A DNA stretch of 64,000 nt from Cellvibrio sp. OA-2007 (GTDB lineage Bacteria; Pseudomonadota; Gammaproteobacteria; Pseudomonadales; Cellvibrionaceae). The notes beneath the pieces were generated by a model. It was not told the origin of the DNA. It made no database searches and saw only the letters and a program-made list of their open reading frames with translations. The stretch lies in the NCBI RefSeq assembly GCF_000953825.1, contig NZ_BBUL01000082.1, forward strand, positions 1 to 64,000. Direction: 5' to 3'. Position numbers and translations under genes: made by a program. Below, in pieces: positions 31,957 through 54,825 of this stretch; positions within the stretch are counted from its first letter, which is position 1; every line of letters starts with the position of its first letter.

Positions 31957-31974
31957 ACTCCCGCATGCGGGAGT
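31957..31974. repeat. REP-like GC-rich palindrome
   Basis: A perfect 18-base palindrome with half-site ACTCCCGCA is preceded by CGTC and followed by CCAGC. This resembles the extragenic palindromes of the form gtcaTTCCCGC...GCGGGAAtcca found in many proteobacteria. I see one clear copy in this window, so its repeat nature is inferred. Confidence 0.5.
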
Positions 31975-32013
31975 CCAGCTTTTGCTTTTCGCTTAACTAT
32001 TGCGATTTGTATA

Positions 32014-32052
32014 AGCGGAAGATCTTTGCCGCTTCTCCCTTGCCGCTTTTAT
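32014..32052 (+). promoter_or_regulatory. Shared upstream element, copy 1 (before flgB)
   Basis: It consists of AGCGGAAG, three variable bases, TTTGCCGCTTCT, six bases, then CCGCTTTTAT. The same blocks recur at 36422-36462 before flgF. It ends about 65 bases before the GG of the flgB sigma-54 promoter, a plausible enhancer position. It can also fold as a small AAGCGG/CCGCTT hairpin and may act as the cheR terminator. Confidence 0.5.
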
Positions 32053-32115
32053 CGCGCTCACCTCTCTTTGTTTTTTTATCCATTTAAATCAGTAAGTTAT
32101 GGCTATTTTTGGTCA

Positions 32116-32132
32116 TTGGCACAGCAGTTGCT
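32116..32132 (+). promoter_or_regulatory. Sigma-54 promoter of flgBCDE
   Basis: TTGGCACAGCAGTTGCT: GG at 32118-32119, ten bases, GC at 32130-32131, a near-perfect match to YTGGCACGN4TTGCW. It lies 69 bases before the flgB ATG. Confidence 0.85.
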
Positions 32133-32200
32133 TTATTGTAGATATCAAAAGGTTACAGCCACATTGGTTGCCACCTGTCATCACTGAAGGCGAATTTAAT

Positions 32201-32602
32201 ATGTCCATTTCTTTTGATAAAGCACTCGGCATTCATGAATCGGCGCTGCACTTTCGTTCCGAGCGTGCAAGCGTGTTGGCTAATAACCTTGCCAACATCG
32301 ATACCCCGAATTTCAAAGCGAAAGATTTGGATTTCAAACAGGCATTGAATCAAAAAATGCAAGCATCGAATGGTTTTGATTTGGCGACAACCCAAAATCG
32401 CCATATCGATGGCAGTGGTTTCAATATGGATAACGGTGATGTGTTGTATCGCACGCCGCAGCAGCCATCAATAGATGGCAACACTGTAGAAGACCAAATT
32501 GAACACGCGGAATATATGAAAAATGCGCTGGCATTCCAGGCAAGTTTTCAATTTTTAAACAGTAAATTTACTGGGTTGCGCACGGCTATTCGCGGCGACT
32601 AA
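32201..32602 (+). CDS. flgB: Flagellar proximal rod protein FlgB
   Basis: This 133-residue rod protein has the conserved N-terminal motif RASVLANNLANIDTPNFKAKD near residues 23-43. C-terminal residues (MKNALAFQASFQFLNSKFTGLRTAIRG) form the partner helix of the rod bundle. I start it at ATG 32201 (MSISFDKALGI); GAAGG lies upstream, and the longer frame from 32099 would run through the sigma-54 promoter. It opens the flgBCDE unit. Confidence 0.95.
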   Translation: MSISFDKALGIHESALHFRSERASVLANNLANIDTPNFKAKDLDFKQALNQKMQASNGFDLATTQNRHIDGSGFNMDNGDVLYRTPQQPSIDGNTVEDQIEHAEYMKNALAFQASFQFLNSKFTGLRTAIRGD

Positions 32603-32660
32603 GGCAGATAAAAATTTTGGGTAATATTTTCTTCCAATCGAATTTTGTAGGTATCTAATC

Positions 32661-33110
32661 ATGGCACTTGGAAATATTTTTGATATCGCTGGCACAGGAA
32701 TGAATGCACAGAGTTTGCGTTTAAATACCACTGCTAGCAACCTGGCCAACGCGCAATCGGCCAGTTCCAGTGTGAATGAAGTTTATCGCAGCCGTCAGCC
32801 AGTGTTTGCAGCCATGCATCAAAATGCTATGCGTGAAGCTGCGATTGAAGGCGAGTACAGCAATAACGAGTTGGATGCCGCAGCAGGTGTAAAAGTATTA
32901 GGTATTGTTGAAAGTGATGCGCCGCTACAACGCCGTTATGAACCTAGTCATCCGAAAGCGGATGAGGAAGGTTATGTTTATTACCCCAATGTAAATCCGG
33001 TTGAAGAAATGGCGAATATGATTGCCGCATCACGTTCATTTCAAATGAATGTAGAAGTAATGAATTCAGCTAAACAAATGGTTCAGCGCGTGCTGACTCT
33101 TGGTCAGTAA
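32661..33110 (+). CDS. flgC: Flagellar proximal rod protein FlgC
   Basis: This 149-residue rod component has N-terminal SLRLNTTASNLANAQS and a C-terminal PVEEMANMIAASRSFQMNVEVMNSAKQM, the paired helices of axial proteins. It contains the typical internal PNVNPVEEM segment. It follows flgB by 58 bases with AGGT before the ATG. Its length is close to the family norm (about 134-150). Confidence 0.95.
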   Translation: MALGNIFDIAGTGMNAQSLRLNTTASNLANAQSASSSVNEVYRSRQPVFAAMHQNAMREAAIEGEYSNNELDAAAGVKVLGIVESDAPLQRRYEPSHPKADEEGYVYYPNVNPVEEMANMIAASRSFQMNVEVMNSAKQMVQRVLTLGQ

Positions 33111-33129
33111 TTAGTGAGGGAGAAATGTT

Positions 33130-33834
33130 ATGTCAACTGTAAGTGGCACCGGTAATACCTCCAGCGTTACTGACAACCTGAGCATTACCAAAAAAACAGA
33201 AACGAAAAAAAATACAAATGAGCTTGGTCAAGCGGCATTTCTTGAGCTGATGATTACGCAAATGAACAACCAAAATCCATTGAGTCCACAAGACAACAGC
33301 GAGTTTGTTGCACAGTTGGCGCAGTTTAGCTCGGTGGAAGGGTTGGAGCGTTTAAATACTAGTTTTAATAGTTTTATGTCGAACAATGCATTGCAAGCTT
33401 CTTCATTGGTTGGGCGCAGTGTAACGGTTAAATCTGATACCAGCATGCTCGTCACAGGTGGAATTGTCGCCGGTAGTGTGGATCTTGCTTTGCCTGCCAG
33501 CGATATGAAAATCAGTATTTACGATGAGATGGGAGCATTAATACAAACCGTTCCTGTCGGTAAGGTGCCCAGTGGTGAAACAGTCTTCCGTTGGGATGGG
33601 CAAAACATGGAAGTTAATGGTCAGTTGTTGGATTGGGAAGCGGGCGATGATGCTGCGGCTGCAGGCAAATATCGTTTTGCTGTGACTGCAATGCAGGACG
33701 GAAAAACAGAAGCGCTCGATACGTCGCTGAGTGCAAATGTCAATAGCGTGACAATTGGTGAAAATGGCGCGCTTATTTTGAATCTGGCAGGTGTTGGTGC
33801 CGTAGATGCCAAAAATGTAAAACAGTTTAATTAA
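33130..33834 (+). CDS. flgD: Hook cap / assembly scaffold FlgD
   Basis: This 234-residue hook-capping protein has the conserved LGQAAFLELMITQMNNQNPLSPQDNSEFVAQLAQFSSVEGLE near residues 33-74. The Ig-like and tudor-like C-terminal domains follow. It caps the growing hook and is replaced by FlgK. GAGGGAG is placed before the ATG. It sits between flgC and flgE, as expected. Confidence 0.95.
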   Translation: MSTVSGTGNTSSVTDNLSITKKTETKKNTNELGQAAFLELMITQMNNQNPLSPQDNSEFVAQLAQFSSVEGLERLNTSFNSFMSNNALQASSLVGRSVTVKSDTSMLVTGGIVAGSVDLALPASDMKISIYDEMGALIQTVPVGKVPSGETVFRWDGQNMEVNGQLLDWEAGDDAAAAGKYRFAVTAMQDGKTEALDTSLSANVNSVTIGENGALILNLAGVGAVDAKNVKQFN

Positions 33835-33891
33835 TGTGAGTTGATGTAATTAAAAAATTCAAGCCATTAATCGTTATGGTCGAGGTGTAAT

Positions 33892-36360
33892 ATGTCTTTC
33901 AATACAGCGTTAAGCGGAATTCGTGCAGCCAATACCGATCTGCAAGTGACCGGTAATAATATTGCCAATGCGAGTACAGTCGGATTTAAATCGTCGCGCG
34001 CTGAATTTGGCGATGTGTATACCAGTACCTTGTTGGGGGGTGGATCGAACACTCCCGGAAGTGGCGTCAATATTCAAAATATTCGCCAGCAATTTACCCA
34101 AGGGAATTTAAAATTTACGCAAAATGAATTGGACTTGTCGGTTAATGGCGAAGGTTTTTTTGTAGTAGAAAAAAATGGAGAGCGTTTATATACCCGTGCG
34201 GGCACTTTTGGTCTGGATAAAAATGGTTATATAGTCAATGGTACCGGTGCATTGCTGCAGGGATTTGGTGCTGATTCAAGTGGCAATATTGCCGGTGTGC
34301 TTGGGGATTTGCGCGTGGATGTTAGTTCACAAGAACCACGTCAGACGACTGCGGTAGCTGCATCGTACAATGTTAATTCGAATGCATTGGTGTTAGAGAC
34401 AACCGGTCAGCGTTTTGCAACTAACGGCACTGGAATTAGTAATGCACAGTTGGGGTTAAAAGTACCGGTAACGTCCCGAGTTGATGTAGCCACAGCAACC
34501 GCGTCAGCCGGATCACCTATAGTCGTTGCTACTCCTTCTGTCGGCCCTCCAGCTGTGGCAGCTACAGTCATACAGTTGTCGCGTACTGTACCGGGCAACC
34601 CTACACCTCAGACTGTTGATATCACCATCACTCCAGGCACTTATAATAATTTAACCTCTATTGCGAACGAAATTAATAATAAAAACTTTAGCAAAGCTGT
34701 GCCGCTAAATGTTCAGGCTTATGTAGATACAGATGGCCGCTTGAAAATGCGTGATCTGGCAGCAGGTGTTGCTTCTCAGTTAGATATTTCAACTATAAGT
34801 GGTAGCAATGGCTTAACTACCGCGATAGATGCGATAACACCTGCAAACATTACTGTTGGTCAGCCTAAGGTCACGAATGATTACGCTTCCCATACCTTGG
34901 TTATTCAAGGCCCGAATAAAGCAGCACCGGTCACTTACATTAGTAAATATGGCGCGGGAGCCGATCAAACTGCATCTGAATTAAATTCACTTGCCGGTAT
35001 TAGTGCGACAGCGCGCACCACTGCCACTATTTTGCGTGAGGTGCCGGCTGTTGTTGGCCCGCCGGCAGTTGCTGCAAAACCTTTTGATAATAATACCGGC
35101 ACATTTACTTTGAATGGTGTGGTGCTTACTTCATCCACTGCAGTCGACATGACGGATCTTGCTAAGGAAATTAATAACCTGAGTAAGTCTACACTGTTTG
35201 GAATTACTGCCAACGTTAATGAACTTACCGGTGACCTTGAAGTGGTGTCTGCTACTGGGCGTGATTTGGAATTCTCCTTTGGTAGCGCAGGCGATGTAGT
35301 AGGTGTTATCGGTAATCAAGGGGTATTGCAAGAAATAGATACTATTACCACTCCCGCATTAGTTGGTAGTGCGATCAAAGTGGGCGGTGAAATTACCGTT
35401 ACCATGCAGGAAGGTTACTCGATTAAGAGTAGCCAACCTACAACACCTGTTAGTGGCGGCATTTTATTCGGCGCTATTGGTGACCCTACCTTCTTTACTC
35501 CTGTTCCGATTAATGCTTTTAACCCCAATGATCAAAAAACTTATAATCACGCAACCACTACCCCTATATATGACAGTCTGGGTAATGTTCACTCAATGCG
35601 TCAGTATTTTGTAAAACAAACCTACGACCCAGCCGATCCCACTACGTCTTCCAATCATTGGAAAATGTATGTGCAGATCGATGGTCAAAATGTAGGAGAC
35701 CCAGATCCTACCCTGCCATCGCCAGACAATATCTTGCCTACCATGGCTTCATTTGACCTACATTTCACGCCGGATGGCACTATTGATTTGTCGATGACCG
35801 ACTCCATTCTAATTTCCAACTGGACGCCACTTGGTAAGGACGGAGCTCCATTGGGTGCCTTTGGCCCACTAAATGTTTTGCAAGGTGGAACCATTCCGGT
35901 AGCAGAGCCACCGGCTAGCTCTAACTTTATGATTGACCTTACGGGTAGCACGCAGTTCGGTAGCGCCTTTTCAGTTGAGCAACTAGATCAAAATGGCTAC
36001 ACAACTGGTCGTTTAGCGGGTTTGGATATCAGCAATACCGGCATCGTGTTTGCGCGTTTTACTAACGGTGAAGCTCAGGTGTTAGGGCAGGTTGCACTGG
36101 CAAACTTTGCCAGCGTGGATGGCTTGAAGCCAACTGGCGACACTATGTGGGCGCAAACCTTTGAATCAGGTGAGGCGATTGTCGGAGCGCCAGGCTCATC
36201 TCAGTTAGGTAATATCACCGCTGGTGCAGTAGAGGAATCCAATGTGGATTTATCTGAACAGTTGGTAAACCTGATTATTGCCCAGCGGAATTATCAGGCG
36301 AACGCAAAAACCATTGAAACGGCTAATGCAACGACTCAGACGATTTTGAATCTTCGTTAA
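33892..36360 (+). CDS. flgE: Flagellar hook protein FlgE, unusually long
   Basis: This 822-residue protein is about twice the length of E. coli FlgE (about 400). The N-terminus (MSFNTALSGIRAANTDLQVTGNNIANASTVGF) and C-terminus (EESNVDLSEQLVNLIIAQRNYQANAKTIETANA) are standard core helices. The extra length is in the outer domains at about residues 170-560. These contain two copies of a VGPPAVAA linker, near 217-224 and 388-395, and a Flagellin_IN-like stretch (FTLNGVVL). GAGGTG precedes the ATG. A terminator follows the stop. The function of the extra domains is unknown; surface display or hook stiffening are possibilities. Confidence 0.95.
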   Translation: MSFNTALSGIRAANTDLQVTGNNIANASTVGFKSSRAEFGDVYTSTLLGGGSNTPGSGVNIQNIRQQFTQGNLKFTQNELDLSVNGEGFFVVEKNGERLYTRAGTFGLDKNGYIVNGTGALLQGFGADSSGNIAGVLGDLRVDVSSQEPRQTTAVAASYNVNSNALVLETTGQRFATNGTGISNAQLGLKVPVTSRVDVATATASAGSPIVVATPSVGPPAVAATVIQLSRTVPGNPTPQTVDITITPGTYNNLTSIANEINNKNFSKAVPLNVQAYVDTDGRLKMRDLAAGVASQLDISTISGSNGLTTAIDAITPANITVGQPKVTNDYASHTLVIQGPNKAAPVTYISKYGAGADQTASELNSLAGISATARTTATILREVPAVVGPPAVAAKPFDNNTGTFTLNGVVLTSSTAVDMTDLAKEINNLSKSTLFGITANVNELTGDLEVVSATGRDLEFSFGSAGDVVGVIGNQGVLQEIDTITTPALVGSAIKVGGEITVTMQEGYSIKSSQPTTPVSGGILFGAIGDPTFFTPVPINAFNPNDQKTYNHATTTPIYDSLGNVHSMRQYFVKQTYDPADPTTSSNHWKMYVQIDGQNVGDPDPTLPSPDNILPTMASFDLHFTPDGTIDLSMTDSILISNWTPLGKDGAPLGAFGPLNVLQGGTIPVAEPPASSNFMIDLTGSTQFGSAFSVEQLDQNGYTTGRLAGLDISNTGIVFARFTNGEAQVLGQVALANFASVDGLKPTGDTMWAQTFESGEAIVGAPGSSQLGNITAGAVEESNVDLSEQLVNLIIAQRNYQANAKTIETANATTQTILNLR

Positions 36361-36411
36361 TAAGTAGGATGGGTAGAGCGCTGCGATACCCATCTATGTC
36401 CATAGTTATCG

Positions 36412-36450
36412 AGCGGCAAACAGCGGAAGCAGTTTGCCGCTTCTTTATTT
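36412..36450 (+). terminator. Intrinsic terminator after flgE
   Basis: The ten-base arms AGCGGCAAAC (36412-36421) and GTTTGCCGCT (36432-36441) enclose a ten-base loop, with TCTTTATTT following. It closes the flgBCDE unit. Confidence 0.7.
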
Positions 36451-36462
36451 CTCCGCTTTTAT
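36422..36462 (+). promoter_or_regulatory. Shared upstream element, copy 2 (before flgF)
   Basis: It reads AGCGGAAG, three variable bases, TTTGCCGCTTCT, eight bases, CCGCTTTTAT, matching copy 1 at 30 positions in those three blocks. It overlaps the flgE terminator and ends about 83 bases before the GG of the flgF sigma-54 promoter. Confidence 0.5.
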
Positions 36463-36543: not shown

Positions 36544-36560
36544 TTGGCATCGCTCTTGCA
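36544..36560 (+). promoter_or_regulatory. Sigma-54 promoter of flgF operon
   Basis: TTGGCATCGCTCTTGCA: GG at 36546-36547, ten bases, GC at 36558-36559. It sits 72 bases before the chosen flgF start, downstream of the flgE terminator. Confidence 0.85.
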
Positions 36561-36631
36561 AAACCTTCAGTAACGGCAAATTCGCCAAAAAACTAGCGGC
36601 AACTTTATCGCTAGCGACTGGAGACATTCTT

Positions 36632-37375
36632 GTGGACAAAGCGCTCTTTATCGCCATGACCGGCGCCAAGCACAACATGCTGGCACAGGCTAATCGCGCC
36701 AATAACCTTGCCAACGTCAATACCACTGGTTTTCGTGCGGACTTTGAACAGTCACGCAGTATGGGGGTTTATTACGGCGATGGTCAGCCAACTCGCGCCT
36801 ATGCAATGACAGAGTCGCCCCGTGCCGATTTCACCTCAGGCGCCATGATTGCCACCAATAATCCGCTTGATGTTGCAATTCAAGGCGATGGCTTTTTTGC
36901 CGTGCAAGCTGTTGATGGTACTGAGGCCTACAGCCGCGCCGGTAATTTTGCGGTGGATGCAACCGGCACTCTGCGCACCGCTAATGGCTTGGTTGTATTA
37001 GGCGATGGCGGGCCAATCAACATTCCCGAAAATGAAAAAGTACAAGTGGGTGCAGATGGCACCATTTCTATTGTCGGCCAAGGCCAAGGTCCAGAGGCGA
37101 TGGTGGAAGTAGGGCGCTTGAAGTTAGTGAACCCCGATGTACAAAACCTTGAAAAAGGCGATGACGGTTTATTTCGTCAGCGCGATGGTTTAAATCCATT
37201 GGCGGCGGCTGAAGTGACTTTGCGCAGTGGCATGTTGGAAAGCAGTAACGTCAATCCGATTGATGAATTCACGCAAATTCTTAGCCTTTCACGGCAATAT
37301 GAAATGCAAGTAAAACTGATGAAAACAGCCGAAGAAAATTCAGCGAGTTCAGCGCAGCTGTTACAAATCTCCTAA
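36632..37375 (+). CDS. flgF: Flagellar proximal rod protein FlgF
   Basis: This 247-residue rod protein has the core N-terminal motif MLAQANRANNLANVNTTGFRADFE and a C-terminal SSNVNPIDEFTQILSLSRQYEMQVKLMKTAEE. I start it at GTG 36632 (MDKALFIAMTG), which has GGAGA at 36620-36624 with seven bases of spacing. An upstream open frame to 36434 would overlap the promoter and adds unrelated residues. Length fits the family (about 250). It opens the second rod and ring unit. Confidence 0.93.
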   Translation: MDKALFIAMTGAKHNMLAQANRANNLANVNTTGFRADFEQSRSMGVYYGDGQPTRAYAMTESPRADFTSGAMIATNNPLDVAIQGDGFFAVQAVDGTEAYSRAGNFAVDATGTLRTANGLVVLGDGGPINIPENEKVQVGADGTISIVGQGQGPEAMVEVGRLKLVNPDVQNLEKGDDGLFRQRDGLNPLAAAEVTLRSGMLESSNVNPIDEFTQILSLSRQYEMQVKLMKTAEENSASSAQLLQIS

Positions 37376-46742: not shown

Positions 46743-46769
46743 TAAAGCTACTCCGGAATGTGTCGATAA
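46743..46769 (+). promoter_or_regulatory. Sigma-28 (FliA) promoter of fliC1
   Basis: TAAAGCTA, 11 bases, GTCGATAA. Thirteen of sixteen consensus positions match. It lies 99 bases before the fliC1 ATG. Confidence 0.8.
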
Positions 46770-48997: not shown

Positions 48998-49387
48998 ATG
49001 AATGAATTCACTAAAGTCACTGCGGGTCCGACACAGATTTCATCTGTGTCGGTTTCGCCACAAGCGGGCAGTGCAAAAGGTCAAAAAACCGGCAATGATT
49101 TGCCGCTTGCCGCTGTAGCGGCAAAGCCACAACCACAAGAACCCGTCAATTCTAAGGCGATAGAAGAGAAAGTTCAGGCCGCCGTTGCGCAAATGAATGA
49201 ATATATTCAATCAACGCAACGCGATTTAAACTTCTCTTATGACCCTGATTCTGGCGAAACGGTGGTTAAGGTTTTGGATCGTGCAACACAAGAAGTTATT
49301 CGTCAGATTCCCGATGAAACCTTCTTGCGGTTAGCGCAAAAAATGAGTGTGGAATCATCTGGCTTATTGTTTAGCGCAAAAGCTTAA
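48998..49387 (+). CDS. flaG: Flagellar protein FlaG
   Basis: This 129-residue protein has a disordered N-terminal third and a FlaG domain at about residues 60-129 (DLNFSYDPDSGETVVKVLDRATQEVIRQIPDETFLRLAQKM). FlaG limits filament length or glycosylated filament behaviour in some polar-flagellated bacteria; its mechanism is unclear. I start at ATG 48998 with GAGGATTTGGG upstream; the frame to 48965 lacks a ribosome site. It lies 68 bases after fliC1, probably cotranscribed, and ends at a terminator. Confidence 0.93.
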   Translation: MNEFTKVTAGPTQISSVSVSPQAGSAKGQKTGNDLPLAAVAAKPQPQEPVNSKAIEEKVQAAVAQMNEYIQSTQRDLNFSYDPDSGETVVKVLDRATQEVIRQIPDETFLRLAQKMSVESSGLLFSAKA

Positions 49388-49474: not shown

Positions 49475-49621
49475 TTTTGCAGGTTCACTTTTTTCAAAAT
49501 TATTTTGTGTTTTCCAATCATTATTGACTGTGATTTTTACCGTCTTATCCGCATTTTTTATTTCCGCTTTTAATTGTATCTCGCCACTTTTTGTTCCGTT
49601 TAAAAATCGCCTGAAATTATC

Positions 49622-49638
49622 TTGGCACAGTCTGTGCA
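49622..49638 (+). promoter_or_regulatory. Sigma-54 type promoter candidate for fliC2
   Basis: TTGGCACAGTCTGTGCA: perfect -24 (TGGCAC), GG at 49624-49625, ten bases, GC at 49636-49637, but -12 GTGC instead of TTGC. It is 174 bases before fliC2, a long leader. No FliA site is visible in this gap. Confidence 0.55.
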
Positions 49639-51902: not shown

Positions 51903-51934
51903 AACCGCCCAAGGCTTGCTTTGGGCGGTTTTTT
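51903..51934 (+). terminator. Intrinsic terminator after fliC2
   Basis: Ten-base arms AACCGCCCAA (51903-51912) and TTGGGCGGTT (51921-51930) enclose an eight-base loop and are followed by T residues. This should separate flagellin transcription from the sensor kinase gene. Confidence 0.85.
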
Positions 51935-52002
51935 ATTGTTTTTTTGTGCCATTGGGAAGGGACTCGACTAGGCTTAGGAAAGCTGAAAACGAGAGTCATT
52001 TG

Positions 52003-54654
52003 ATGGTAAAAATTTGGCGTATGCCTGCAACACCTTGGGTGTTGCGTATTGTGTTACTTGCGCTCGCGTATTTCCTTGCTGGGCGCCTGTCGTTATTACT
52101 GGCAATTCCGCCCGGTTTTGTTTCTGGTTTATTTCTCCCTATGGGGATCTCGCTAGGGGCTTTATTGATATGGGGCTACCCCATGGCGATTGGCGTCTTC
52201 GTCGGTTCATTGCTACTCAATATTTCGGTTAGCCCTGCGCCAATACTGGAGTTGCCAGTAGTGTTACTTGCAGCGGAAATTGCTTGTGGCAGTGTTCTTG
52301 CGAGTGCTGCAGGAGCGTGGTTGATTCGTCGTTATATTGGATTCCCCAATAGTCTGACCGACGAGCGCAGTATTTTCGCCTTCTTTATTTTGGGCGGACC
52401 TATTGCTACCAGTATTAGTGCCACTGTAGGTGTGATGGCGTTATTTATGAGCGATGTGATTCCCGCCAAACAGGTTTTTTATAGTTGGTGGACCTGGTGG
52501 ATAGGGGATGCAATTGGTGTTTTGATTGCGGCGCCGTTGGTGTGTGTCTTGTTTGCGGAACCGCGCCATTTTTGGCGAGGGCGCCGCGTGACAGTAGGTG
52601 TTCCAATTGTTGTAAGCAGTTTAATTGTTGTAGCTGTGTTTGTTATATCCAGCAACAACGAAAATAGAAAATTAAATGATCATTTTCGACAACAGGCCGG
52701 CTTGCTAGTCGGTTCGGTCGATACCGGTTTCTCATCGGTAGTGAATACACTAGCGACCTTGCGTTCATTTTTTATCGCGTCAGAAGAGGTGACTCGCGAT
52801 GAGTTTGCTACCTATATAGAGCATGTGACGATTGGGCGTTATGGAATTACAGGGTTTTCTTGGAATCAGTTTGTTAAAGATGCCCAGCGCGCGCAGTTTG
52901 AAATTCAAAAAAGTCAGAGTTTAGGTACAGATTTTTTTATTAAAGAAAAAGACTCAACCGGCCAGTTTGTGCCAGCTTTGCGCCGTGATGAGTATGTAGT
53001 GGTTTCTTATATTCACCCTTGGCAAAAAAACTCAGTCATTATTGGGTTTGATGTTGCATCCGACCCTATTCGGCGCGAGGCGTTGTATCGTGCTCGTGAG
53101 TCGGGGGAATTTGCTATGACTCGCCCCGTGCAACTATTGCAAGATAAAGCCACATCGAGTGGTGTATTGATTTATCAGCCGGTCTACGATTCCGCGTCGC
53201 TCAAACTAAATCCGGTTGCGCGGGAACCTTGGTTAAAAGGCTATGTTACCGCTGTTGTGCGTATTGACGACCTATTGGCTGCCATAGTCAAACCCTATGC
53301 TTCAGGCGATTTTCAATTAACAATTACTGATATCACCGATGTGAGTGATCCCAAGCCTTTTTACCATACCCAGGAATTTAAAGTGCCCGCTTATGCGCAC
53401 AGTTTGGCGTTGAGTCAGACTATGGCACTAGGGGGGCGGCAGTTATTAATTACAGTGACTCCCACAGAAAAATATCTAGTAGATCATGTGAGTTTACAGT
53501 CTTGGTTTGTATTGGCTGGCGGCTTGTTGTTTTGTAGTTTACTCGGTGGTTTTTTGTTATTGATCACGGGGCGCACTCAACATATTACGAATTTAGTTGA
53601 GCAGCGTACCAAAGAGTTAGCAGCGATTTTGGATAACGCAGTTGAGTCCATTTTAGTGGTAGATGAGCAGGGGTTTATTCAAAACGCCAATCCCGCCGCG
53701 GCACAACTCTTTAAATATCCCATTGCACAGTTTGCGTACTTGCATATCGGCGAATTGGTGCCATCTATGCGGCAAGGGTTAAACTTTACTGGTGATGATA
53801 ATACCGCAACCGTATTAAGTGATGGACTGGGTCGCTGCAGTAATGGAAATGATTTGGAAATTGAATTGAGTATCAGCCCGGTTGCGCTTCACGAACGAAA
53901 GTTTTTTACATTTATTATTCACGACGCGTCTGCCAGGCGCAAAATGGAGCGGTTAAAGAATGAATTTGTTGCTACGGTCAGCCATGAGTTGCGCACGCCG
54001 TTAACTTCGATTAAAGGGGCGCTGAGCATCGCGCTGAGTGGAAAATTGGGTGAAGCTAAACTGCATGAGCTATTAACTATTGCCAGCAATAATGCAGATC
54101 GGTTGGCGCGTTTGGTGAACGATATTCTCGATATCGAAAAACTGGAATTTGGCAAGTTAACACTGACGCTGGAGCAGTGCGAAGTTTATCCATTGTTGCA
54201 ACAAGCCATTGAACAAAATCAGGGGTATGCCGCACGTTATGGGGTGCAATTACAATTGGATGTTCCGGATGAGCAATCTATTCATTGCCTTGCCGCTATA
54301 GATCCACATCGTTTTCTACAAGTGATGGCAAATTTGCTGTCCAATGCGGTTAAGTTTTCTTATCTTGATGGTGTAGTGCGAGTACGGCTTACTAATGATG
54401 CGGAAAGCCTCAAGGTGGCGGTAAGGGATGAAGGGCAGGGAATCGCAGATGAATTCCGTTCGCGCATTTTTCAAAAGTTTGCCCAAAGTGACTCATCAGA
54501 CACGCGCAATCGTGACGGTACCGGCTTGGGGTTGAGTATTTCAAAAATTATTGTTGAGCAAATGGGGGGCTCAATTGACTACAGTTCAACCTTGGGTAAA
54601 GGCAGTACATTCTATTTCACACTGCCGTTAACAACTAACGGCGGGGTGGGTTAG
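52003..54654 (+). CDS. Orphan sensor histidine kinase with MASE1, CHASE and PAS domains
   Basis: This 883-residue sensor has a membrane-embedded MASE1 domain (about residues 10-210, eight or so helices). A CHASE-type extracellular domain follows (about 240-500), then one more membrane helix near 505-530, a PAS-like domain (about 540-650), HisKA with the phospho-accepting His in ATVSHELRTPLTSIKGALS near 660, and an HATPase with N box NLLSNAVKFSYLD, DEGQGI and GTGLGLSI. All catalytic motifs are present. I start at ATG 52003 with GAGAG upstream; ATG 52021 is possible. There is no response regulator gene next to it. Its place between fliC2 and fliD is unusual. Confidence 0.88.
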   Translation: MVKIWRMPATPWVLRIVLLALAYFLAGRLSLLLAIPPGFVSGLFLPMGISLGALLIWGYPMAIGVFVGSLLLNISVSPAPILELPVVLLAAEIACGSVLASAAGAWLIRRYIGFPNSLTDERSIFAFFILGGPIATSISATVGVMALFMSDVIPAKQVFYSWWTWWIGDAIGVLIAAPLVCVLFAEPRHFWRGRRVTVGVPIVVSSLIVVAVFVISSNNENRKLNDHFRQQAGLLVGSVDTGFSSVVNTLATLRSFFIASEEVTRDEFATYIEHVTIGRYGITGFSWNQFVKDAQRAQFEIQKSQSLGTDFFIKEKDSTGQFVPALRRDEYVVVSYIHPWQKNSVIIGFDVASDPIRREALYRARESGEFAMTRPVQLLQDKATSSGVLIYQPVYDSASLKLNPVAREPWLKGYVTAVVRIDDLLAAIVKPYASGDFQLTITDITDVSDPKPFYHTQEFKVPAYAHSLALSQTMALGGRQLLITVTPTEKYLVDHVSLQSWFVLAGGLLFCSLLGGFLLLITGRTQHITNLVEQRTKELAAILDNAVESILVVDEQGFIQNANPAAAQLFKYPIAQFAYLHIGELVPSMRQGLNFTGDDNTATVLSDGLGRCSNGNDLEIELSISPVALHERKFFTFIIHDASARRKMERLKNEFVATVSHELRTPLTSIKGALSIALSGKLGEAKLHELLTIASNNADRLARLVNDILDIEKLEFGKLTLTLEQCEVYPLLQQAIEQNQGYAARYGVQLQLDVPDEQSIHCLAAIDPHRFLQVMANLLSNAVKFSYLDGVVRVRLTNDAESLKVAVRDEGQGIADEFRSRIFQKFAQSDSSDTRNRDGTGLGLSISKIIVEQMGGSIDYSSTLGKGSTFYFTLPLTTNGGVG

Positions 54655-54748
54655 GTCAATTATTGATAATAAAAACATGTAATTGGCGCAGATCGTGCTC
54701 TTAACCAATGGAAGAGGAATGAATCTCTTAAAAAGCGGCAAAACCGGC

Positions 54749-54775
54749 TAAAGTTTACCCACCGGTTGCCGCTAA
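54749..54775 (+). promoter_or_regulatory. Sigma-28 (FliA) promoter of fliD
   Basis: TAAAGTTT, 11 bases, GCCGCTAA; 15 of 16 consensus positions match. It lies 50 bases before the fliD ATG. Confidence 0.85.
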
Positions 54776-54825
54776 CCTTATGTAATGAAGATAGCCAAGC
54801 GGTAATTTTTGGTGGGGAGGTATCA

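Follow-up and report, generated by a model that had tools for sequence, protein, structure and literature searches.

A conserved sigma-54 enhancer motif, an element of a known kind, lies upstream of the flagellar genes flgB and flgF in a stretch of 64,000 nucleotides of the Cellvibrio sp. OA-2007 genome (contig NZ_BBUL01000082.1, positions 1 to 64,000; hereafter the window, in which all features described are on the + strand). The motif is real, has a defined spacing, position and set of target promoters, and is found at the class III flagellar sigma-54 promoters of flgB, flgF, fliK and fliD, while those of fliL and fleS lack it. From comparison of sequences, we consider it likely that the element is a sigma-54 enhancer made of a 22-bp dyad, usually accompanied by extra half-sites, and bound by a response regulator of the FleR/FlrC type. 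An enhancer had already been suggested in a preliminary description of this DNA, and recurrence, spacing and position support that suggestion, since the motif recurs in much of the order at a constant position ahead of the sigma-54 promoter of flgB, has a favoured dyad spacing and returns at other class III promoters; the element is, however, a dyad with half-sites and not the three-block structure described there.

Anatomy of the element upstream of flgB and flgF

The two copies are indeed located upstream of flgB and flgF, at the proposed distances from sigma-54 promoters: the first ends 65 bp before TGGCACAGCAGTTGCT (32117..32132) and the second 83 bp before TGGCATCGCTCTTGCA (36545..36560). 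Both promoters are perfect matches to TGGCAYN5TTGCW, and account for two of its 13 perfect matches genome-wide (4 for the reversed control). The sequence shared by the copies is also genuine, but the notion of three different blocks is ruled out and was dropped because a single half-site, TTGCCGCTT (inverse AAGCGGCAA), underlies all of them: blocks 1, 2 and 3 are the left half of the dyad, its right half and an additional copy. The resulting consensus, AAGCGGCAA-N4-TTGCCGCTT, is a dyad of 22 bp whose half-sites start 13 bases apart, with a third copy added.

Upstream of flgB (32201..32602; assigned by the Pfam family Flg_bb_rod, gene order and relatives), the candidate enhancer dyad AAGCGGAAG-ATCT-TTGCCGCTT covers 32013..32034, with half-sites at 32013-32021 and 32026-32034, and the third half-site of the cluster, TTGCCGCTT, follows at 32040..32048. 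Upstream of flgF (36632..37375, GTG start, assigned by Pfam), the candidate dyad CAGCGGAAG-CAGT-TTGCCGCTT covers 36421..36442, its right half starting at 36434, and stands between an extra half-site GAGCGGCAA (36411..36419) and a third, degenerate one, TCTCCGCTT (36450..36458). The flgF leader carries a further half-site 3′ of the promoter, TAGCGGCAA (36594..36602), which starts 49 bases past the start of the -24 element.

In the 4.6-Mb genome, AGCGGAAG-N3-TTTGCCGCTTCT occurs at exactly two places, upstream of flgB and of flgF; exact matches are thus confined to these promoters rather than scattered over many gene ends. Scanning the genome for AGCGGAAGNNNTTTGCCGCTTCT with up to 3 mismatches returned the 2 exact places and 2 more at 3 mismatches (reversed control, 0). 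Looser queries were rejected as too frequent to serve: the 12-mer TTTGCCGCTTNT alone at one mismatch has 293 places (170 for the reversed control), and the loose dyad GCGGNAN5TTGCCGC at two mismatches has 922 (control, 485), four of its seven exact places lying within open reading frames with no sigma-54 match inside 400 bases.

The flgB cluster is preceded by a perfect inverted repeat, CCCGCATGCGGG (31960-31971), which is single in the window; a similar one precedes flgB in locus L014. The flgF leader holds a conserved stretch, CGGCAAATNNGCCAAAAAA (36574-36592), found at the same place in most of loci L002-L014, and its GCCAAAAAA part remains in L020-L023.

Conservation and recurrence at class III promoters

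Relatives were taken from a scan with FlgC (best 80 of 323), the nearest named genomes among them being Cellvibrio. Loci L002-L037 include Cellvibrio, Marinimicrobium, Exilibacterium, Endobugula and others; L038-L081 are Alteromonadales-like, mostly Pseudoalteromonas, Idiomarina, Rheinheimera and Arsukibacterium. Among L002-L037, 30 of the 34 scored flgB promoters have a half-site with at most one mismatch within 150 bp upstream, against a background of about 7% in the same loci. The 34 are what remains of 36 loci after removal of L032 (no FlgB hit) and L028 (score under 14); the promoters lacking the site are those of L003 (whose contig has 14 bases before the promoter), L026, L033 and L036.

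FlgB was also found in 83 of 115 genomes sampled across the order. Of the 82 genomes with FlgB other than the strain's own, all but G085 entered the corresponding flgB set, which comprised 82 loci from 81 genomes (G094 has two copies). Removal of L258 (no BLAST hit), the second G094 copy and four promoters with scores below 13 reduced the set to 76. An upstream half-site with at most one mismatch precedes 57 of these 76 promoters (mean 7.1 and maximum 16 in dinucleotide shuffles), and an exact one precedes 29 (mean 0.5, maximum 3). The sites concentrate between -130 and -60 from the -24 element. In an unbiased count of 8-mers upstream of flgB with one genome per family, AGCGGCAA/TTGCCGCT came first, being present in 19 of 37 families for 0.43 expected; it is the same half-site, reached without prior choice of a word. 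Inverted pairs (halves with at most 2 mismatches, start distances of 6-39) favour the spacing of 13, which accounts for 13 of 64 pairs, the next bin holding 6. The two flgB sets overlap, the pairs L178/L013, L199/L024 and L212/L033 looking identical.

In the genome of strain OA-2007 itself, fliK, fliD and a GGDEF gene also have the half-site in their leaders, where it begins 47-49 bases past the position at which the -24 element starts. Counted from that position, the sites in the fliK and fliD leaders lie about 47-60 bases downstream; those at flgB and flgF lie about 60-140 bp upstream. At fliL, at fleS and at another seven sigma-54 sites with a perfect match, no half-site was found at up to one mismatch, which counts in favour of a FleR/FlrC-type enhancer. 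Among 19 relatives, a half-site lies between +30 and +70 in the fliK leader for 15 of the 18 promoters scored, often as a full dyad such as AAGCGGCAA-GGGT-TTGCCGCTT in L350; by eye, L343 and L344 have a weaker form and L353 has none. A half-site is likewise present in 7 of 13 scored fliD leaders, including all six Cellvibrio-type loci. In the window, the fliD promoter candidate TGGCGCAGATCGTGCT (54684..54699), a similar site to which is found at the corresponding place in Cellvibrio-type relatives L320-L325, is followed by three half-sites within 54733..54805: AAGCGGCAA at 54733, TTGCCGCTA at 54766 and AAGCGGTAA at 54797. All six of L320-L325 retain the first two at their mutual distance of 33 bases (shifted by 12 in L323). 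A gene for a histidine kinase of 912 amino acids (51916-54654) lies between the second flagellin gene and fliD.

As a cross-check, 16 fliK leaders from other genomes, which have the same dyad spacing of 13 (L355, with shifted halves, was omitted), were combined into a symmetrised matrix, and this was run over 230 kb of the OA-2007 genome, namely the window and stretches partly picked around sigma-54 matches and flagellar genes rather than the whole genome. The top three places were the strain's own fliK leader, the interior of flaG (27.4) and flgB (18.3). Rank 4 (C3:15321, L156) lies 96 bp upstream of the perfect sigma-54 site of a YcgR-like gene, whose product has a PilZ domain and a PilZN domain just below the Pfam cut-off, and ranks 9 and 11 are the GGDEF gene (C11:49725, L129) and flgF (13.2). 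Five of the 11 places scoring at least 13 are at sigma-54 sites (fliK, flgB, flgF, the YcgR-like gene and the GGDEF gene), compared to a random mean of 0.29 and a maximum of 4 in 2000 draws; the fliK match is not independent of the training set, so the independent places number 4 of 10. Dyads at the sigma-54 promoter candidates of the GGDEF and YcgR-like PilZ genes hint at cyclic di-GMP (c-di-GMP) functions within the class III flagellar set.

The dyad in flaG, AACCGGCAA-TGAT-TTGCCGCTT with further half-sites (49087..49130), overlaps the codons of the protein motif G-x-x-L-P, which could itself explain the match. Of 17 flaG genes (L374 and L375 were left out), 16 encode this motif, L367 being without it. 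Synonymous codon choice is nevertheless biased towards the dyad: in these 16 genes (own plus 15 relatives, kinship uncorrected), GGC is used in 14 (4.6 expected from local usage), TTG in all 16 (5.1 expected) and CCG in 14 (4.2 expected); GGC is lost in L371 and L372, and CCG in L366 and L372. A sigma-54 site nearly identical to TGGCACAGTCTGTGCA lies 0.5-1 kb past the flaG start in 9 of the 10 loci L358-L367, its place being known relative to flaG only. The flaG dyad may be an intragenic enhancer for fliC2, a candidate role confounded by G-x-x-L-P. The promoter candidate of fliC2, the second flagellin gene, is TGGCACAGTCTGTGCA (49623..49638, 1 mismatch). The lone CCGCTTTTA previously described upstream of it is present, as the weak half-site TTTCCGCTT (49561..49569), but as a word this 9-mer is at chance level, with 25 matches in the window at up to one mismatch for 19.7 expected. 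The two large flagellin genes differ in promoter type: the first is preceded by TAAAG-N14-GTCGATAA (46743-46769), which is sigma-28-like as judged by the sigma-28 consensus, and the second by the sigma-54 candidate at 49623-49638; the difference between V. cholerae flaA and the other flagellins of that species is much like this split.

The candidate regulator and alternative explanations

The contig of the window carries, at 98.3-101.2 kb (C16), a gene pair that we take to be fleS and fleR from domain layout and by recognition. The FleR-like protein combines REC, Sigma54_activat and HTH_8 (a Fis-type helix-turn-helix), and the adjoining kinase has the layout PAS-HisKA-HATPase. Passages from the literature on Pseudomonas state that FleR of P. 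aeruginosa recognises the flgBCDE, flgFGHIJKL and fliC promoters (PMC8335546), that fliK is under FleSR control and that the diguanylate cyclase gene gcbA is regulated by FleR (PMC10714779); a passage on V. cholerae places a putative sigma-54 site in the interval from flgE to flgF (PMC7064773). The motif-bearing promoters fit this Pseudomonas list of FleR targets, and a FleR-type regulator is favoured over FleQ. The literature passages covered yielded no FleR/FlrC recognition sequence, the SELEX (systematic evolution of ligands by exponential enrichment) figure for P. syringae FleR (PMC7532196) not being part of the comparison.

The preliminary description had offered FleQ/FlrC as an example of the activator. 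A second-tier response regulator of the FleR/FlrC type is likely; that the dyad would instead be an enhancer through which the master activator FleQ (FlrA) acts directly on class III promoters seems unlikely to us. FleQ is likewise a sigma-54 activator with a Fis-type helix-turn-helix, which counts in its favour, but the half-site is absent at fliL and fleS, both FleQ targets in Pseudomonas. According to passages on P. fluorescens, chromatin immunoprecipitation sequencing (ChIP-seq) places flgB, flgF and fliK among the likely FleQ targets, and the published FleQ consensus is GTCaNTAAAtTGAC (PMC6120874). This consensus is unlike the dyad and has no match within 3 mismatches at flgB, flgF, fliK, fliD or fliC2, though one with 3 mismatches exists at the GGDEF gene. 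The same scan was empty at fliL, fliE and flhA (named by eye), and because these class II genes are negative too, absence of the FleQ consensus at flgB and flgF is weak evidence.

Another regulator or a nucleoid protein, such as an IHF-like bender or a repressor, is an equally improbable binder of the dyad at class III promoters. In favour of this alternative, the binder cannot be named from the sequence by itself. The DNA-binding domain parsed at 31 FleR loci also bears on this point: the recognition helix [PADQ]RTLRYK is kept, near-identical, in 11 of 12 Alteromonadales-like genomes without the flgB motif, so that helix and motif do not simply co-vary. Helix 2 (L303-L318) is mostly KNTA in motif-bearing genomes versus K-x-V-A in the Alteromonadales-like ones, the next helix being nearly constant. 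By contrast, a sigma-54 activator fits a dyad with tandem half-sites that stands at the distance of an enhancer, is linked to class III promoters of the sigma-54 type and agrees with the list of FleR targets. The genome has six other strong Sigma54_activat matches, FleQ probably among them; to our knowledge, none of the other sigma-54 activators is known for this gene set. A copied intrinsic-terminator hairpin at gene ends, the alternative raised in the preliminary description along with the foldability of both copies, is the least probable of all and very improbable in itself. The flgF copy does fold: it stands about 50 bases past flgE, where the half-sites at 36411..36419 and 36434-36442 form a strong hairpin (-21.3 kcal/mol, z -3.87) followed by a T-rich stretch, and a terminator-like match was recorded at 36425. 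The flgB copy, on the other hand, folds no better than shuffles (z 0.21), the exact element has only two places in the genome, and Cellvibrio-type loci L005-L007 show by eye a separate GC hairpin with a T run before the flgB dyad. At fliK, the dyad (folding z -1.15) lies between the promoter and the start codon, where a terminator would silence the gene. A terminator is thus no general explanation, given the shuffle-level folding of the flgB copy and the place of the fliK site, and survives as a possible second role at flgF, whose copy may double as the flgE terminator.

Several observations weigh against a FleR-bound enhancer. Besides the retained recognition helix, the upstream flgB half-site was found in none of the 42 flgB promoters scored in the Alteromonadales-like L038-L081 (44 loci, minus L068 and L077, which scored under 14) and is missing from 19 of the 76 in the order sample. 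Conservation is weaker at flgF, where the half-site is present at 14 of 24 promoters scored among the 36 loci L002-L037 and at 1 of 40 scored among the 44 loci L038-L081; order-wide (29 of 83 non-own flgF genomes, 18 promoters scored), 5 of 18 have an upstream site (mononucleotide shuffles, mean 0.5, maximum 4) and 4 of 18 a leader site. The fliD layout is mostly absent beyond Cellvibrio, the half-site near fliC2 is weak only, and at fliE, a class II gene in Pseudomonas, one half-site overlaps the promoter candidate. The perfect sigma-54 site of the YcgR-like gene has a matrix match without a half-site at up to one mismatch. Six of the 11 matrix places scoring at least 13 have no sigma-54 site nearby, and the partial picking of the 230 kb around sigma-54 matches weakens this cross-check. 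Separately, Pseudoalteromonas flgB leaders among L038-L081 have in common AAGTCAATTTTTTGGAG, or a sequence close to it, in the interval from promoter to start codon, possibly a local counterpart of the missing motif.

Proposed mechanism and known systems

FleR is most likely the protein that binds the dyad and activates, under control by phosphorylation. Once the export gate and the MS (membrane and supramembrane) ring/rotor are in place, the kinase would phosphorylate FleR, an assembly-checkpoint logic taken from passages on relatives (PMC7064773). FleR dimers would then bind the dyad by their C-terminal Fis-type helix-turn-helix and form oligomers over the cluster of half-sites; through its AAA+ domain, FleR would contact sigma-54 RNA polymerase and open class III promoters. 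Predicted targets are flgBCDE, the flgF operon, fliK, fliD, probably fliC2, and the GGDEF and YcgR-like genes, with the enhancer placed upstream at flgB and flgF and in the leader at fliK and fliD. More tentatively, and with less confidence than doubt, we propose that one palindrome serves as an order-wide FleR code that is arranged in three ways. It would form clusters upstream of the promoter at flgB and flgF, dyads in the leader, past the transcription start, at fliK and fliD, and, among the codons of flaG, an intragenic enhancer lying about 0.5 kb ahead of the sigma-54 promoter of a flagellin gene. This code would also couple the checkpoint of flagellar assembly to c-di-GMP output by way of the YcgR-like brake and the GGDEF gene. 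In many bacteria with polar flagella, the rod-hook stage is governed by FleR/FlrC regulators, and the 22-bp dyad with its predicted target list makes the activator's target, the extent of the regulon and the choice between enhancers upstream and downstream of the promoter directly testable. It also predicts that a diguanylate cyclase and a c-di-GMP brake would be turned on alongside the hook genes.

The architecture resembles that of NtrC-type enhancers, in which short half-sites form inverted repeats at a distance of roughly one helical turn and often occur in clusters; half-site sequence and genes differ. Closer is the FlrC enhancer of V. cholerae flaA, on which Correa and Klose reportedly published in 2005 and where the FlrC footprint is said to begin near +24. 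It shares with the present motif class III flagellar sigma-54 promoters and a response regulator of the FleR/FlrC group, and the fliK, fliD and flgF half-sites start 48-49 bases past the start of the -24 element, which we reckon to be near +24 of the transcript. We know of no recognition sequence for FlrC. In contrast to that system, the main dyad lies upstream at flgB and flgF, and the Alteromonadales-like flgB promoters lack the motif found here. The FleQ sites GTCaNTAAAtTGAC, as given in PMC6120874, are also flagellar sigma-54 enhancers but differ in sequence and serve an overlapping but distinct promoter set. As for the class III promoters of Pseudomonas FleR, the passages cited (PMC8335546, PMC10714779) give no binding sequence, and the GGDEF gene here is known by its domain and not as gcbA; genes, sigma factor, regulator family and a diguanylate cyclase target are nevertheless alike in the two systems.

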